Below are positions 1 through 5,272 of a stretch of 64,000 bases of DNA, one piece after another. The stretch is from Chloroflexota bacterium (GTDB lineage: Bacteria; Chloroflexota; Anaerolineae; Anaerolineales; Villigracilaceae), in NCBI GenBank assembly GCA_021414245.1, contig JAIOOU010000007.1:310001-374000 (forward strand). Direction: 5' to 3'. The first letter of the stretch is position 1. Every line of letters begins with the position of its first letter. Made by a program: the position numbers and the translations under genes. Below the pieces are notes generated by a model. It was not told where the DNA came from. It did not search any database and was given only the letters and a program-made list of their open reading frames with translations.

Positions 1-561
1 CCCGGAGTTGACCTCGAGATAACGCAGGATGGCGCGGATCCTGGTCGCGTACGAGAGTGCTGCCTCCACGTTTCGCATGTCCGGTTCGGAGACGATCTCA
101 AGCAGCGGAACACCTGCGCGGTTGAAATCCACGAGGGCATGGTTCTTTTCATGTGTAAGTTTGGCGGTGTCCTCTTCGATATGCACGCGCCGAACAGTGA
201 CACGCTGTGGATTTTCGGTGTCACCCGGAATATCCAAATAGCCGTTGGATGCAATCGGGAGTTCGTATTGCGAGATCTGATATCCCTTGGGCAGATCGGG
301 ATAATAATAATTTTTGCGCGCGAAAGTATTGTGCGGGTTGATGGAGCAGTTCAAGGCCAGACCGACGAGCGCGGCAAGTTCCACGGCTTTTTTATTCACA
401 ACGGGCAGGGCACCGGGGAGGCCTGTGCAAACCGGGCAGATCAGGGTATTCGGCTCGGGGGCGGAACCATAATCCGCGGAACAACTGCAGAACATTTTGG
501 AATTCGTTAGCAATTCAGCGTGGATTTCAAGTCCGATAACGGGTTCGTAGGTCTGAGTCAT
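1..561 (-). CDS. gatB: Asp-tRNA(Asn)/Glu-tRNA(Gln) amidotransferase subunit B, partial (C-terminus outside window)
   Basis: GatB binds the misacylated tRNA and carries out the kinase/transamidation half-reaction of GatCAB, turning Asp-tRNA(Asn) or Glu-tRNA(Gln) into the amidated form. Only the first 187 codons are present; the frame runs open through base 1. The translation starts MTQTYEPVIGLEIHAELLT, the standard GatB opening, followed by the CxC (C25, C27) and CPVC (C42, C45) cysteines, the KNYYYPDLPKGYQISQYE block and HIEEDTAKL. The ATG at 561 was chosen because it begins this conserved block. It is the last visible gene of the aspS-dapB-gatC-gatA-gatB run and is separated from gatA by 100 bases that contain a palindromic repeat. 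Confidence 0.95.
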   Translation of the reverse strand, partial: MTQTYEPVIGLEIHAELLTNSKMFCSCSADYGSAPEPNTLICPVCTGLPGALPVVNKKAVELAALVGLALNCSINPHNTFARKNYYYPDLPKGYQISQYELPIASNGYLDIPGDTENPQRVTVRRVHIEEDTAKLTHEKNHALVDFNRAGVPLLEIVSEPDMRNVEAALSYATRIRAILRYLEVNSG

Positions 562-661: not shown

Positions 662-2128
662 TTAAATTGGGGGTAACTGTTCATGCCAGTCGGTGACCTG
701 TTGATAGGCATGACCGACCTGGAACAGGGTCTGTTCATCCAAATGCCTGCCAATCAGCTGCATCCCGACAGGCATGCCTTTGGAAAATCCGCAGGGCAGG
801 GCTAACGCGGGAACGCCTGCCGGGTTGGTGGCGACGACATATATGTCAGAGAGATACATTTCGAGCGGGTCGTTTGTCTTTTCGCCGAGTTTGAAGGCGG
901 TGGTGGGAGAGGTCGGGGCGAGCAGAATGTCCACGGAGGCCAGGGCAGTTTCAAAGTCACGGCGGAGAAGCGTGCGGACTTTTTGGGCCTTGAGATAATA
1001 TGCGTCGTAATATCCGGAAGACAATGCGTATGCGCCAAGCATAATCCTGCGCTTGACCTCATCGCCGAATCCCTCGCGACGGGTCTGCAGGTAAATGTCG
1101 ATCACGTCCCTGGCGTTTTCCGAAACGGAGAGGCCGAAGCGCGTGCCATCGAAGCGCGCAAGATTGGAACTGGCCTCGGCCATCAGCAAAAGATAGTAAA
1201 CCGGCAGGGCGTATCGGGTGTTGGGCAGGGAAACCTCCCGGACCTTCATGCCAAGTGCTTCATAGGTTCGGATGGCTTCCTGAATGGACGACTCGACACC
1301 CGCTTCCATGCCGGACACAAAATATTCTTTTGGTATCCCGATGGTCATTCCTTTGACGGATTTATTCAGGTCCTGATGGTATTGCGGAACCGGTGAGTTG
1401 AACGTTGTGCTGTCGCGTTCGTCTTTACCTGCGATGGCTTCAAGCACAATCGCGCAGTCCTGAACATCGCGGGTCATGGGACCGATGCAATCGAAGGAGG
1501 AGACCAGCGAGATCAAGCCATAGCGCGAGACGCGGCCGTAGGTGGGCTTGATGCCGGTCACATTGCAAAAACCCGCAGGCATGCGGACCGATCCGCCCGT
1601 GTCCTCGCCCAACGAGAATGAGCAAAGGCTGGCAGACACGGCGGCGGCGGAACCTCCGCTTGATCCACCCGGCACGCGCTCAAGGTCCCACGGATTACGG
1701 GTGTCGACGAAAGCGGAATTTTCGCAGGAGGAACCCATGCCGAACTCGTCCATGTTGGTTTTTCCCATGAGCACGGCGCCTGCATCTGCAAGTTTGTTGA
1801 CCACTGTGGCACTGTATTGCGGAACGTATTCCGCAAGGATTTTCGAGGAGCAGGTGGTGCGGACTCCGCGGGTGGAAATGCAGTCCTTGAGCGCGAAAGG
1901 AATGCCCGTCAGGGGGGTGATGTTTTCGCCGCTGGCGATGCGGTCATCCGCCTGCCTCGCTTGCTCGAGTGCCAGGTCATCGGTGATGGTGACATAGGAA
2001 CTGATCTTCGGGTCGATTTCATAGGCGCGCCGAAGCATGGCCTGGGTCAGTTCCATGCTACTGATCTTTTTGTCAATGAGCAGCTGATGGATTTGATGAA
2101 TTGGAAGGGTATGGAATTGACCGGTCAT
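662..2128 (-). CDS. gatA: Asp-tRNA(Asn)/Glu-tRNA(Gln) amidotransferase subunit A
   Basis: GatA is the glutaminase subunit of GatCAB; it releases ammonia from glutamine for transfer to the aminoacyl-tRNA. The 488-residue product has the amidase-signature Ser-cisSer-Lys triad at K81 (in PFALKD), S156 (in GGSSGGSAAAV) and S180 (in GEDTGGSVRMPAG). The 75 and 24 residue spacings match those of characterised GatA (K79/S154/S178 in Staphylococcus aureus, from memory). Length is normal. The ATG at 2128 overlaps the gatC stop by four bases, indicating translational coupling. With AspRS upstream it supplies Asn-tRNA by the indirect route. Confidence 0.97.
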   Translation of the reverse strand: MTGQFHTLPIHQIHQLLIDKKISSMELTQAMLRRAYEIDPKISSYVTITDDLALEQARQADDRIASGENITPLTGIPFALKDCISTRGVRTTCSSKILAEYVPQYSATVVNKLADAGAVLMGKTNMDEFGMGSSCENSAFVDTRNPWDLERVPGGSSGGSAAAVSASLCSFSLGEDTGGSVRMPAGFCNVTGIKPTYGRVSRYGLISLVSSFDCIGPMTRDVQDCAIVLEAIAGKDERDSTTFNSPVPQYHQDLNKSVKGMTIGIPKEYFVSGMEAGVESSIQEAIRTYEALGMKVREVSLPNTRYALPVYYLLLMAEASSNLARFDGTRFGLSVSENARDVIDIYLQTRREGFGDEVKRRIMLGAYALSSGYYDAYYLKAQKVRTLLRRDFETALASVDILLAPTSPTTAFKLGEKTNDPLEMYLSDIYVVATNPAGVPALALPCGFSKGMPVGMQLIGRHLDEQTLFQVGHAYQQVTDWHEQLPPI

Positions 2129-2424
2129 TCATCACCTAAAACGGTCGGCACTTTGAGATATCCACGTTCGGATCGGGGCGCATTTTTTAAAAATTCCTCG
2201 CGGCTCATGGATACTTTGGCCACGTCTTCACGCAGTACATTTGTGTTGGTGGTGATGTCCGAGGCGGGCGGGACGTTTTCCGTGTCCGCTTCGTTGAGCA
2301 TGTCGAAGTAGTCAATGATGGTCGAGAATTGCCCGCTGAATTTTTGGGCTTCCTCTTCCGAGATTCCCAGCCGTACGAGGTGCGCCACATTCTTGACGGT
2401 TTTTGTGTCTATCGTTTGGGTCAT
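2125..2424 (-). CDS. gatC: Asp-tRNA(Asn)/Glu-tRNA(Gln) amidotransferase subunit C
   Basis: GatC is the small belt-like subunit that stabilises the GatA-GatB contact. The 99-residue sequence shows the family pattern: an N-terminal helix with VKNVAHLVRLGISEEE, then F..QFSTIIDYFDMLNEADTE, and the conserved late block LREDVAKVSMSREEFLKNAPRSERGYLKVPTVL. Length is normal. It lies 30 bases after the dapB-like stop and overlaps gatA by four bases, so the two are probably translated together. No strong Shine-Dalgarno sequence is visible in front of its ATG. Confidence 0.95.
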   Translation of the reverse strand: MTQTIDTKTVKNVAHLVRLGISEEEAQKFSGQFSTIIDYFDMLNEADTENVPPASDITTNTNVLREDVAKVSMSREEFLKNAPRSERGYLKVPTVLGDE

Positions 2425-2454: not shown

Positions 2455-3261
2455 TCAGGTCAGATCAAGGATGCTGTCAAGTCCGCGATGCAGGCCGGTT
2501 AGGGTATGGACGTTGCGAATCGCGAGCAGGGCCCCATCCACATACGGCTGTGCACTGCTGCCCGAATCGTGACGAATGGTGAGTTTTTGATCGGGCATGC
2601 CGAAAATTATTTCCGCCGAGATGGTGTAACCGGGCAGGCGGACGGAATGCACCTGTGACCCTGTCAATGCCGCGCCGCGTGTCTGCACGGGACCCTGGAC
2701 CTGGTCCAGGGGAATGGTCAATTCCGACGGCCGAATCCTGGAGAGCCGATATGCGAGTTCGCGCACGGTTCCGCTGGGTACGTCTTTTTTGTCATCATGG
2801 GCATAGTCAATGATCTCCCATTGGGGAATGAACCTGGCGGCAATTTCGGAAAATTTCTGCAATAAAACAACGGTCAGCGCGAAGTTTCCGACGGCCAGCA
2901 CTCCGCGTTGGTGCTCCCCAGCCGATGTGGATATTTCTTCATAGTCGGCGTCTGTTAATCCGGATGTTCCGATCACCACATGCGCTTTATGCCGTAGTGC
3001 AGCCAGCACATTGGATTTTGCCATATTGGGCTTTGTGAACTCGAAGAATACATCACATGGGTGCGCTGCAAGGACCTCCTGCGCCGTTGCATACACCGGA
3101 CAGTCCAGGCGCGGCTCTCCAAGCACATCTTGCAGAGCGCGTCCGGCATGTGTGCGGGAGACTGCAGACACAAGCGTTATATCATCGACCCGGGCCAAAG
3201 CATGGGCAACAGCTGAACCAGCCCATCCTGTCGCGCCGGCAAGACAAACACGGATGGTCAT
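2455..3261 (-). CDS. dapB: 4-hydroxy-tetrahydrodipicolinate reductase family protein (DapB-like, catalytic His replaced)
   Basis: DapB reduces hydroxy-tetrahydrodipicolinate with NAD(P)H in lysine and diaminopimelate synthesis from aspartate. The 268-residue product has the N-terminal nucleotide-binding loop GATGWAG, the EFTKP segment, GTSGL and the C-terminal VPSGT motif. The usual E-A-H-H-x-x-K-x-D-A-P-S-G-T block reads here IIDYAHDDKKDVPSGT. In that alignment the first His (H159 in E. coli, the proposed acid/base) is Ala, while the second His and the Lys are kept. The ATG at 3261 is preferred over an upstream TTG; it lies four bases after the aspS stop. Its place in an Asp/Asn tRNA operon suits an aspartate-consuming pathway, but the altered motif leaves the exact reaction uncertain. 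Confidence 0.8.
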   Translation of the reverse strand: MTIRVCLAGATGWAGSAVAHALARVDDITLVSAVSRTHAGRALQDVLGEPRLDCPVYATAQEVLAAHPCDVFFEFTKPNMAKSNVLAALRHKAHVVIGTSGLTDADYEEISTSAGEHQRGVLAVGNFALTVVLLQKFSEIAARFIPQWEIIDYAHDDKKDVPSGTVRELAYRLSRIRPSELTIPLDQVQGPVQTRGAALTGSQVHSVRLPGYTISAEIIFGMPDQKLTIRHDSGSSAQPYVDGALLAIRNVHTLTGLHRGLDSILDLT

Positions 3262-3265
3262 GTTC

Positions 3266-5029
3266 TTACTCAAACTTGATATGCAGTTCTTTCAACTGCC
3301 TCGGCTCGACACCGGAAGGCGCATCCGCCATCACATCGCGGCCGGCTTGATTCTTTGGAAAGGCGATTACTTCACGGATGTTGGGTTCGTCCGCGAGCAG
3401 CATGACCAGGCGGTCGATACCCGGGGCCATGCCGCCATGCGGAGGGGCGCCATATTCAAAGGCCTCAAGCATATGTCCAAACTTGGCTTGAATCACCTCG
3501 TCGGTCATCCCCAGCATTTGGAACATCTTCATTTGAATGTCGCGGCGGTGGATTCGGATCGAGCCTGAAGCCGTCTCATACCCATTGCAGACCATGTCAT
3601 ATGCGTCGGATAAGACTTCTCCCGGATCGGTGTCGAACTTGGGAAGGTCTTCCAACTTCGGCATGGTGAATGGATGATGCTCAGATTCCCAGGCTTGATT
3701 CTCTTCGTTCCAGGCGAAGAATGGAAAATCCACCACCCAGGCGAAAGCCATCATGTCTTTGTCGGCAAGGTCCAATTTATCGCGGAACCACAGGCGGAGA
3801 CCGCCCAATACTTTATTGACCACAGCGCGCGCATCCGTTGCAAAGACGATCAGGTCGCCTTCCTTTGCACCCGTTTTGGATTTAAGAGACTCCACTTCTG
3901 CAGGTGTGACGAATTTGGAAGCGCTTCCTTTCACGCCTTCAGCTGTGATGGCCAGCGTAGGCATTCCTTTTGCCCCGAAAGATTTCGCCACTTCTGTGAG
4001 CGCATCCACTTCTTTGCGGGACATCTCCGCTGATTTCGGGGCGACGATGCATTTGATCACGCCACCAGTTTCCAGTGTGGATTGAAAGACGCGGAATTCG
4101 CTTTTGGCGAAAATGTCGTTGACTTCGATCAATTCCATCCCGAAACGCAGATCAGGTTTGTCAGACCCGTATTTTTCCAGTACTTCACGATACGAGAATT
4201 TTGGCCACGGCGATGAAAGCAATTTCTTGTGCGGCGCAACGGCAGGGATCATTTTGGTAAACAGGCCTTCAACCAGCGCCAGCACATCGTCACGATGAAC
4301 AAAGGACATTTCAAGGTCAAGCTGCGTGAACTCCGGCTGGCGGTCTCCGCGCAGGTCTTCGTCCCGGAAGCAGCGCGCGATCTGAAAGTACTTGTCCATG
4401 CCTGCGACCATCAGCAGTTGTTTCACCTGTTGGGGCGACTGCGGCAGGGCGTAAAACTGACCCGGATAGATTCGGGAAGGGACCAGATAGTCGCGCGCGC
4501 CTTCAGGCGTCGCTTTAAACATGATCGGGGTTTCAATTTCAATGAAGCCTTGCTCGTCCAGATAGTCGCGCATGAACTTAATGACCTTGTGTCGCAGGAC
4601 AAGATTGTGGGTCATGCGTTCGCGGCGCAAGTCAAGATAACGATATTTCAGGCGGGTGTTTTCGTCAGGGAGATCATTGTCCCCGCTGACCATAAATGGC
4701 AGGGTCTTTGCAGGATTTAAGACCTTCACTTCGCGGGCAATGATCTCGACCTCGCCTGTCGGCATTTTTGGATTTTTCATGCCCTCCGGGCGAAGTTGGA
4801 CCAGTCCTTCGATCTGAAGAACCCACTCCATGCGGACGTTGGCCACCAGGTCAAGCGATTCCTTGGGCAGGTCCGGGTTGATCGTGACCTGTACAATTCC
4901 CATGCGGTCACGCAGGTCAAAAAACACAACCCCGCCATGGTCACGCCTGCGGTGGACCCATCCGGAGAGGGTGATCGTCTGCCCGGCATGAGCAGCCCGT
5001 AATTCTCCACAGGTATTCGTTCTATACAT
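3266..5029 (-). CDS. aspS: Aspartyl-tRNA synthetase, probably non-discriminating
   Basis: Charges tRNA(Asp), and probably also tRNA(Asn), with aspartate. The 587-residue product is the bacterial class IIb type: N-terminal OB-fold with [20 protein letters not shown], class II motif 2 ([18 protein letters not shown]), a bacterial insertion domain, and motif 3 ([13 protein letters not shown]). Residue 31 is His in RRRDHGG, the residue associated with AspRS enzymes that also accept tRNA(Asn); discriminating enzymes usually have Leu nearby. The adjacent gatCAB genes fit that reading. The start at 5029 is fixed by GGAGG seven bases upstream and by the conserved [10 protein letters not shown] opening. 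Expression is probably controlled by the attenuator at 5121-5269. Confidence 0.97.
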
Positions 5030-5049
5030 GGTATGCCTCCGTTTTAATT

Positions 5050-5113
5050 GTGTCATCCTGAGCGAAGTGAAGGATTCCGGCTTTTTGGGTCGTTCCGCTG
5101 TCTTAAATGACAC
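5050..5113. repeat. Palindromic repeat with 7-bp terminal inverted repeats in the aspS leader
   Basis: The element begins GTGTCATCCTGAGCGAAGTG and ends with ATGACAC, so its ends form a perfect 7-bp inverted repeat. It belongs to the same general GTCATnCTGAGCGAAG family as the copy at 591-658. It lies between the attenuator terminator and the aspS ribosome-binding site, inside the transcribed leader. Confidence 0.6.
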
Positions 5114-5120
5114 GTGATAT

Positions 5121-5254
5121 ATAAAATAAATCGCCCTTCGCATGAGCGTCGGGCGATTTGATTTGACTTGTTCTATCCGTCAACCAGCAAAGCTTCGCCC
5201 AACGATACAGGGATCGTCATTATCATTATTATTGGCGAAGGAGTTGTTTATCAT
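5121..5254 (-). promoter_or_regulatory. Ribosome-mediated transcription attenuator of the aspS-dapB-gatCAB operon
   Basis: Four complementary segments can be read on the minus strand. Segment 1 is CTTCGCC (5240-5234), inside the leader peptide. Segment 2 is GTTGGGCGAAG (5203-5193). Segment 3 is AAATCGCCCGAC (5159-5148). Segment 4 is GGGCGATTT (5136-5128). 1:2 pairs over 7 bp. 2:3 pairs over 9 bp (GTTGGGCGA with TCGCCCGAC, one G-U pair). 3:4 forms a 9-bp hairpin followed by ATTTTAT, an intrinsic terminator. The Asn/Asp codon run (5233-5213) lies between segments 1 and 2. A ribosome stalled there for lack of charged tRNA would mask segment 1 and favour the 2:3 antiterminator. This is the classical trp/his logic; it is inferred and untested here. 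Confidence 0.75.
5180..5254 (-). CDS. Asn/Asp-rich leader peptide of the aspS operon
   Basis: A 24-codon reading frame, MINNSFANNNDNDDPC followed by IVGRSFAG and TGA. Nine of 24 residues are Asn or Asp, including seven in a row (codons 8-14). These are the amino acids handled by the genes downstream: AspRS and the GatCAB amidotransferase that makes Asn-tRNA. The ATG begins nine bases after the -10 box, so the message is nearly leaderless; no Shine-Dalgarno sequence is present. The peptide overlaps attenuator segments 1 and 2. It is inferred to act by the position of the ribosome rather than as a stable product. Confidence 0.75.
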   Translation of the reverse strand: MINNSFANNNDNDDPCIVGRSFAG

Positions 5255-5263
5255 TGTGGCGCG

Positions 5264-5272
5264 ATTATAGCA
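5264..5272 (-). promoter_or_regulatory. Extended -10 promoter of the aspS operon leader
   Basis: On the minus strand TGCTATAAT (5272-5264) is a perfect extended -10 element. The -35 region is weak, as is common with an extended -10. The predicted transcription start is about 5257, three bases before the leader-peptide ATG. Confidence 0.65.

Follow-up and report, generated by a model that had tools for sequence, protein, structure and literature searches.

The minus strand of the window, by which we mean the whole 64,000-nucleotide stretch of Chloroflexota DNA analysed here, carries aspS, dapB, gatC, gatA and the 5′ part of gatB behind a short leader (Table 1). While the aspS-dapB-gatCAB operon named in the preliminary description is borne out in that the genes score above their cut-offs, gatB leaves the window and asnS further downstream had been missed: beyond gatB, on the same strand, lie a 362-aa frame without an NCBIfam match and, about 6 kb downstream in the same cluster, asnS (447 aa; TIGR00457, 444.1 bits, cut-off 342.6). 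A longer frame, 3266-5143, was considered for the start of aspS and rejected: it begins inside the terminator, and the proteins of relatives start like MYRT or MYKT. The encoded AspRS has DHGG and RPEG, as do 4wj3 and 4rmf (both named Asp/Asn ligases), whereas the Thermus enzyme 1efw differs, with DLGG and RPE with a gap. The His and the Gly occupy two positions that we take to be those permitting tRNA-Asn, and by its residues the AspRS appears to be of the nondiscriminating type. As a separate observation, GatA comes in two kinds, one encoded near aspS and 67–100% identical to that of the window, the other encoded elsewhere and about 51–56% identical, which are possibly the Asn- and Gln-type enzymes; further GatA paralogues are about 45% identical.

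Table 1. Genes of the aspS operon and elements of its leader in the window
Feature	Position	Strand	Evidence and remarks
aspS, aspartate--tRNA ligase, nondiscriminating-type residues	3266..5029	-	NF001750, 842 bits, cut-off 443
dapB	2455..3261	-	TIGR00036, 138.6 bits, cut-off 122
gatC	2125..2424	-	TIGR00135, 96.3 bits, cut-off 47.1
gatA	662..2128	-	TIGR00132, 605.1 bits, cut-off 481.1
gatB, 5′ part; gene runs past the left end of the window (contig C4, 309110-310561)	1..561	-	TIGR00133, 555.6 bits, cut-off 314.8
Extended -10 promoter, TGCTATAAT	5264..5272	-	Read in sequence; TG 5272-5271, hexamer 5269-5264
Leader ORF, 24 codons and TGA, product MINNSFANNNDNDDPCIVGRSFAG	5180..5254	-	ATG 5254-5252, stop 5182-5180
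Sensing run, codons 8-14, AAT AAT AAT GAT AAT GAC GAT (NNNDNDD)	5213..5233	-	
Segment 1, CTTCGCC	5234..5240	-	7 bp with GGCGAAG 5199-5193 (1:2)
Inner hairpin of 1:2, GACGAT / ATCGTT	5201..5218	-	5218-5213 with 5206-5201
Segment 2, GTTGGGCGAAG	5193..5203	-	Core GGGC invariant (70 aligned sequences)
Segment 3, TCGCCCGAC, antiterminator partner of segment 2	5148..5156	-	2:3 pairing, GTTGGGCGA 5203-5195 with TCGCCCGAC 5156-5148, 9 bp including one G-U
Predicted intrinsic terminator hairpin 3:4, AAATCGCCC...GGGCGATTT	5128..5159	-	Sequence; pairing in relatives; 5159-5151 with 5136-5128, 9 bp
T-rich tail of the terminator, ATTTTAT	5121..5127	-	Sequence; T-rich in the alignment of 70

The extended -10, the 24-codon frame with its NNNDNDD run and the 1:2, 2:3 and 3:4 pairings could all be read directly on the minus strand, as described before, and we add the GACGAT/ATCGTT helix, absent from the earlier account, which lengthens 1:2. 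Segment 3 is common to the 2:3 antiterminator and the 3:4 terminator, and the predicted fold of the leader, in which the Asn/Asp run is bulged out, is more stable than expected (z = -3.68; equalled by none of 200 shuffles). There is no clear -35, and the extended -10 is not reported by a consensus scan that asks for one; the same scan finds 1 terminator-like site in the leader, as against 0.5 in shuffles. As a plain consensus scan is unimpressive on its own, the case for the leader rests on its conservation.

Conservation of the Asn/Asp run and of the leader start

We sought aspS in 150 genomes of the family, of which 132 matched, and took 130 loci, all with the gene start (left out were startless fragments in G149 and G043 and at one site in G068, the second copy in G034, and three further places, one in G022 and two in G026). 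At least 5 Asn/Asp codons within 8, in any frame and no more than 600 bases upstream, are present at 114 of the 130 loci, and the codons are thus kept upstream of aspS in relatives, where the preliminary description had suggested looking for them. The remaining 16 fail this test; by eye, a similar terminator is present in 13 of them, in several together with a shorter run and in L180 without one, while L186, L188 and L190 show neither run nor terminator. Under a stricter scoring of the run, 112/130 real upstream regions pass, against 13/2500 base-shuffled leader regions and 0/390 stretches of aspS coding sequence: the Asn/Asp leader is real, far beyond chance. The run varies in length from 4 to 13 and the part of the peptide that precedes it is variable. 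Two terminator finders found none in 5/130 and 17/130 loci, respectively, so the counts given below rest on 99 to 125 loci.

Codon choice within the run is strongly skewed. When Asn, Asp, Lys and Glu codons are scored alike, 107 runs, from 113 loci with a terminator according to the second finder, contain 877 AAY/GAY codons and 10 AAR/GAR codons, as compared to 7337 and 10297 in the aspS genes of these loci. Asn codons number 596 and Asp codons 311 (112 runs), and in 100/107 runs Asp is found ahead of the last two codons. Furthermore, among the 99 runs (out of 107) for which segment 2 could be placed, 15 have it in a different frame with respect to the run, so that the peptide tail reads, for instance, WAKPC and not RSFAG; RNA core and codon run are hence conserved independently of each other. 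The leader therefore has the appearance of a short translatable frame with codons for the very amino acids to which the operon is linked.

To relate the run to the genes behind aspS, we used the 129 loci with enough upstream sequence (L181 was dropped), for which the downstream stretch was mostly 1.5 or 3 kb. gatC follows aspS at 59 loci, asnS at 39 and neither within at least 1.9 kb at 13, with 18 that could not be judged; a run score of at least 5 is reached by 59/59, 35/39, 4/13 and 12/18 of these classes, respectively. The loci with neither gene mostly have short runs, and 12 of the 13 belong to the genera g11, g16, g19 and g25, where asnS scored above its cut-off in none of 10 genomes tested. 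The association between run score and class of downstream gene (Mann-Whitney p 8e-7) makes the evidence look stronger than it is, as these genera may be related. AsnRS above the curated cut-off is encoded in 46/61 family genomes, that of the window included. The earlier suggestion, that the peptide reports on what the indirect pathway as a whole produces, is therefore too narrow: AsnRS is encoded in the cluster itself and asnS, not gatC, stands behind aspS at 39/129 loci, so the switch would read Asp/Asn charging in general. The theme common to the genes behind these leaders is the provision of Asp-tRNA and Asn-tRNA, whichever route is used.

Some genomes have two aspS genes: G014 (L191, L155), G034 (the second at G034:C23) and G021 (L188, L202). 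Both copies of G014, one ahead of gatCAB and one ahead of asnS, are preceded by an Asn/Asp leader of their own; in G021 a leader stands before L202, which is followed by gatC, and none is seen before L188, which is followed by asnS. We also observed palindromic repeat-like pieces (CATTGCGAGG, GAAGCAATCT) within the last 230 bases before aspS at 29/130 loci (for example L012, L013, L020, L025 and L031), with similar pieces 3′ of aspS in L016 and L019. The window itself holds a 29-base repeat-like piece at 5075-5047, of which a 93% copy exists elsewhere in the same genome.

The ATG of the leader frame lies 9 nt past the -10 hexamer in the window. Among 117 family loci in which a -10-like hexamer was found, it takes the form TGCTATAAT in 107, and the first ATG is 7–10 nt past the hexamer in 87, which suggests that the frame is leaderless or nearly so, with its start at the 5′ end of the RNA or close beside it. 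The genome of the window has 9 sites with TGCTATAAT and a near ATG, and at 6 of them a frame of 154 to 384 codons begins, so that leaderless starts look normal there; these six apparently leaderless frames (L310-L313, L316, L317) have their ATG 6–9 bases after TGCTATAAT. Chloroflexi are named among the groups for which leaderless genes are predicted (PMC3160421).

Alternative RNA helices and the modelled position of the ribosome

We aligned 70 of 88 non-redundant leaders (from 103). The 18 leaders not aligned include 7 that were set aside as structurally divergent (L174, L196, L202, L203, L205, L207, L209), and the pairing frequencies are for that reason biased upwards. The outer helix of 1:2 forms 7–8 of its 8 pairs in 73/103 loci, as against 9% of controls with a shuffled segment 2. 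Its inner hairpin is paired in 89% of cells of the alignment and has double-sided changes in 3/6 pairs; two of its pairs fail in 20/70 and 16/70 sequences. The 2:3 helix is formed in 98.4% of cells, with 5/9 pairs that never vary and none with a double-sided change, which makes it a case of conservation and not of covariation. The terminator helix 3:4 is paired in 93.5% of cells and 7/12 of its pairs never vary; the four segments of the preliminary description, with pairings of 7, 9 and 9 bp, are present, except that the outermost A-T of 3:4 is formed in 24/70 relatives only. A further helix behind segment 2 shows double-sided changes in 4/5 pairs. The number of cells with double changes lies above all 500 shuffles in both structures, while the number of pair types does not, being reached by 177/500 and 268/500 shuffles. 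Covarying helices, anticipated earlier for all three pairings, are therefore seen in the inner part of 1:2 and hardly in 2:3 and 3:4, the core segments of which are nearly invariant. Taken together, an intrinsic terminator is predicted between the leader frame and aspS, and 2:3, conserved rather than covarying, is the candidate antiterminator that would exclude it.

To place the ribosome on these segments, we assumed a footprint that extends, from the first base of the A-site codon, over 17 bases before it and 13 bases beyond it. In the window, the modelled chance of 2:3 forming before segment 4 is made stays at 0.98–0.99 while the ribosome is stalled anywhere from codon 8 to codon 13, drops to 0.61 with the stall at codon 14, and is 0.00 when the stall is at codon 15, 17, 19, 21 or 23 or at the stop codon. 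A stall within the run would thus leave segment 2 free, and reaching the stop codon would cover it, in line with the placement of the run claimed before. Across 101 leaders the mean chance of 2:3 is 0.38 with the A site at the last Asn/Asp codon, as compared to 0.73 when it is one codon earlier and 0.08 when it is one codon later; in 8/101 leaders 2:3 never exceeds 0.5 at any tested stall. In the model, the end of the run tends to coincide with the point from which a stalled ribosome would obstruct the antiterminator.

Timing appears to be essential. For the complete leader at equilibrium with the ribosome mid-run, 3:4 is favoured over 2:3 (0.78 vs 0.19, mean of 103 leaders), so antitermination would have to be kinetic. 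In the absence of a ribosome, 2:3 reaches 0.44 before segment 4 is made, and in the window 2:3 is at 0.96 as against 0.03 for 1:2. Segment 2 is paired upstream with a chance of 0.77 in the early transcript, while 2:3 competes before segment 4. As 1:2 is the weaker of the two at that stage, a role of 1:2 as protector requires co-transcriptional order, with 1:2 forming first.

Sister leaders of asnA and the distribution of the element

A covariance model of the leader (R1) was used to scan 301 genomes of the order, 90 of which had a match. A weak second match in G060 proved to be an NNNNN leader before asnA (L340, G060:C35:133800-134700). The asnA gene is present in 5/301 genomes of the order, 3 of them in the family of the window and from two genera, and all three family asnA genes carry a sister leader of the same build (L340; L360, L361, L362). 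Their runs, NFNNNNNNNN, NNNNN and NVSNNNNN, are Asn runs with no Asp codon, the single Asp codon of the first leader being at position 3, ahead of the run. In each genome the RNA core of the asnA leader aligns with that of the aspS leader (TTCGCC...GTTGGGCG), the run of which mixes Asn and Asp, and in the asnA leaders a hairpin closes beside a run without an Asp codon, with AACGCC/GGCGTT in 2/3. The asnA leader looks like the same sensor re-aimed by its codons, which is, with three genes, our most telling result. The two asnA genes outside the family (G252, G358) have no such leader.

Beyond asnA, the regulon looks small, judging by the lack of leaders on unlinked gatCAB, on asnB and on asnA outside the family. 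No Asn/Asp run score above 3 was found upstream of unlinked gatA (15 regions) or at 30 asnB loci (41 genomes searched, 23 matched), and the 27 asnB loci that could be placed at the gene start (L406, L414 and L415 were excluded) all score 2 or less. In the genome of the window R1 has one strong match, the aspS leader, at 108.5 bits (38.1 bits on the opposite strand). Matches L215-L217 in this genome, at 25.6 to 21.5 bits, were set aside: they look like tRNA-side or plain terminators. Three further matches are weak, and our reading of the regulon in this genome covers L215-L217. Five secondary R1 matches in other genomes comprise 1 asnA leader and 4 that resemble plain terminators. A pattern scan from segment 2 to segment 3 gave a match in at least 124 of the 150 family genomes; among the matches listed are aspS leaders, the three asnA leaders and coding-like places. 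A search of plasmid records for similar DNA gave no match.

Outside the family, we took 40 loci of the order, drawn from 13 further families, of which 14 score at least 4 in the automatic test; one of the 14 (L285) resembles a piece of a longer coding frame, and several of the lower-scoring loci of the order show leader, run and terminator by eye. Among 20 loci outside the order, one (G513, from another family of the class) scores 5, and the 14 loci outside the class have run scores of 2 or less. In 21 leaders from outside the family that were picked by eye, 2:3 beats shuffles at p<0.05 in 13 and does not in 8.

A putative attenuator and its relation to known systems

On the strength of the conserved codons, segments and spacing, the aspS leader very probably regulates transcription by ribosome-mediated attenuation, responding to how far tRNA-Asp and tRNA-Asn are charged, and the core of the preliminary description, an Asn/Asp leader-peptide attenuator on the aspS operon, is thereby supported at the level of sequence. 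RNA polymerase would begin at the extended -10 and the ribosome at or beside the 5′ end. When Asp-tRNA or Asn-tRNA is scarce, the ribosome would stall in the Asn/Asp run, covering segment 1 and leaving segment 2 free; 2:3 would then form before segment 4 is made, and the polymerase would continue into aspS and the genes behind it. When both charged tRNAs are ample, the ribosome would reach the stop codon and cover segment 2, the 3:4 terminator would form and transcription would end near 5121. That the terminator and antiterminator work in the cell, that transcription starts at this promoter and that the response runs in this direction we infer. More broadly, we lean slightly towards viewing the leader as an ancient portable module of Anaerolineae: a leaderless two-input switch that would open when either Asp-tRNA or Asn-tRNA is short, and that has been re-aimed from Asn plus Asp (aspS) to Asn (asnA).

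Other readings of the leader can be weighed against sensing of both tRNAs. The last two codons of the run lie inside the inner hairpin and Asn codons are the more numerous, as would be expected if only Asn were sensed and the Asp codons served the pairing of GACGAT with ATCGTT; however, Asp is nearly always also found ahead of those two codons, and the asnA hairpin closes beside its run without any Asp codon, and we consider this explanation unlikely. With a short conserved peptide ahead of an operon, one may also think of the Asn/Asp-rich nascent chain itself arresting the ribosome, with no need for uncharged tRNA. Arrest peptides depend on specific residues, though, and here the tail can stand in another frame, the length of the run ranges from 4 to 13 and the part before it varies, which renders peptide arrest very improbable.

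Readings that dispense with translation fare no better. The leader does end in a terminator-like hairpin, as would a T-box, a metabolite riboswitch or a plain constitutive terminator, but nothing in the window matches Rfam at the gathering score (with a lax threshold the leader region gave only an sRNA model, on the opposite strand and with an E of 0.52, and the T-box model was unmatched), and a plain terminator leaves the codons and segment 2 unexplained; we regard this group as a shade less probable still than peptide arrest. Finally, the run, bulged out as it is in the fold, could be nothing but an unstructured A/T-rich linker between the halves of an RNA hairpin. Such a linker would accept AAA and GAA, so the near-exclusive use of AAY and GAY codons counts against it, as do the asnA runs without Asp, and we find this idea scarcely credible.

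Leader-peptide attenuators control trp, his, thr and pheST in E. coli, with pheST specifying a tRNA synthetase and the thr run combining two amino acids. The aspS leader resembles these in its run of codons for the amino acids of the operon, its alternative 1:2, 2:3 and 3:4 pairings and its terminator before the first gene. It differs in that Asn and Asp would be sensed, in that the leader frame seems to begin at or beside the 5′ end of the RNA, and in its occurrence: it belongs to Chloroflexota and precedes asnA as well as aspS operons that include gatCAB or asnS. A two-codon T-box of Clostridium acetobutylicum reportedly controls the genes of tRNA-dependent Asn transamidation and reads two tRNAs; it would share both the pathway and the two-tRNA reading with the aspS leader, while not being a leader-peptide attenuator. 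T-boxes in general likewise sense tRNA charging and act by antitermination, but have no leader peptide, the RNA reading the tRNA directly, and the aspS leader has no Rfam match.

PMC1262725, which also names the pheST attenuator, describes predicted trpS and leuS attenuators in some Streptomyces genomes: like the aspS leader, these were predicted by comparison, on tRNA synthetase genes and outside Proteobacteria, but for Trp and Leu. According to PMC2494555, two Dehalococcoides genomes have T-boxes, those listed for Chloroflexi being on ile and trp genes, and an Asn-tRNA ligase is missing from the Chloroflexi genomes of that study, in contrast to the family of the window. A 2010 survey of attenuation in aminoacyl-tRNA operons (Mol Biol 44:128), cited in PMC4833913, may hold a related prediction. 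Among the open-access papers that our searches listed, we found no leader-peptide attenuator for Asn/Asp, aspS, asparagine synthetase or Chloroflexi, which is consistent with the earlier remark that no Asp/Asn attenuator has been described. The mechanism itself is classical attenuation; the novelty, as far as we found, lies in the amino acids, the host group, the asnA variant and the apparent start at the 5′ end.

The teaching of leader-peptide attenuation draws on a few Proteobacteria, and the aspS leaders would place it in many species of uncultured Chloroflexota, for two amino acids for which we found no described case. The apparent start at the 5′ end raises the question of how leaderless initiation would keep the ribosome and the polymerase in step. 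The aspS and asnA leaders, with a common RNA core but different runs and target genes, amount to a natural codon-swap experiment, and with this pair the rule that the run names the signal is directly testable.
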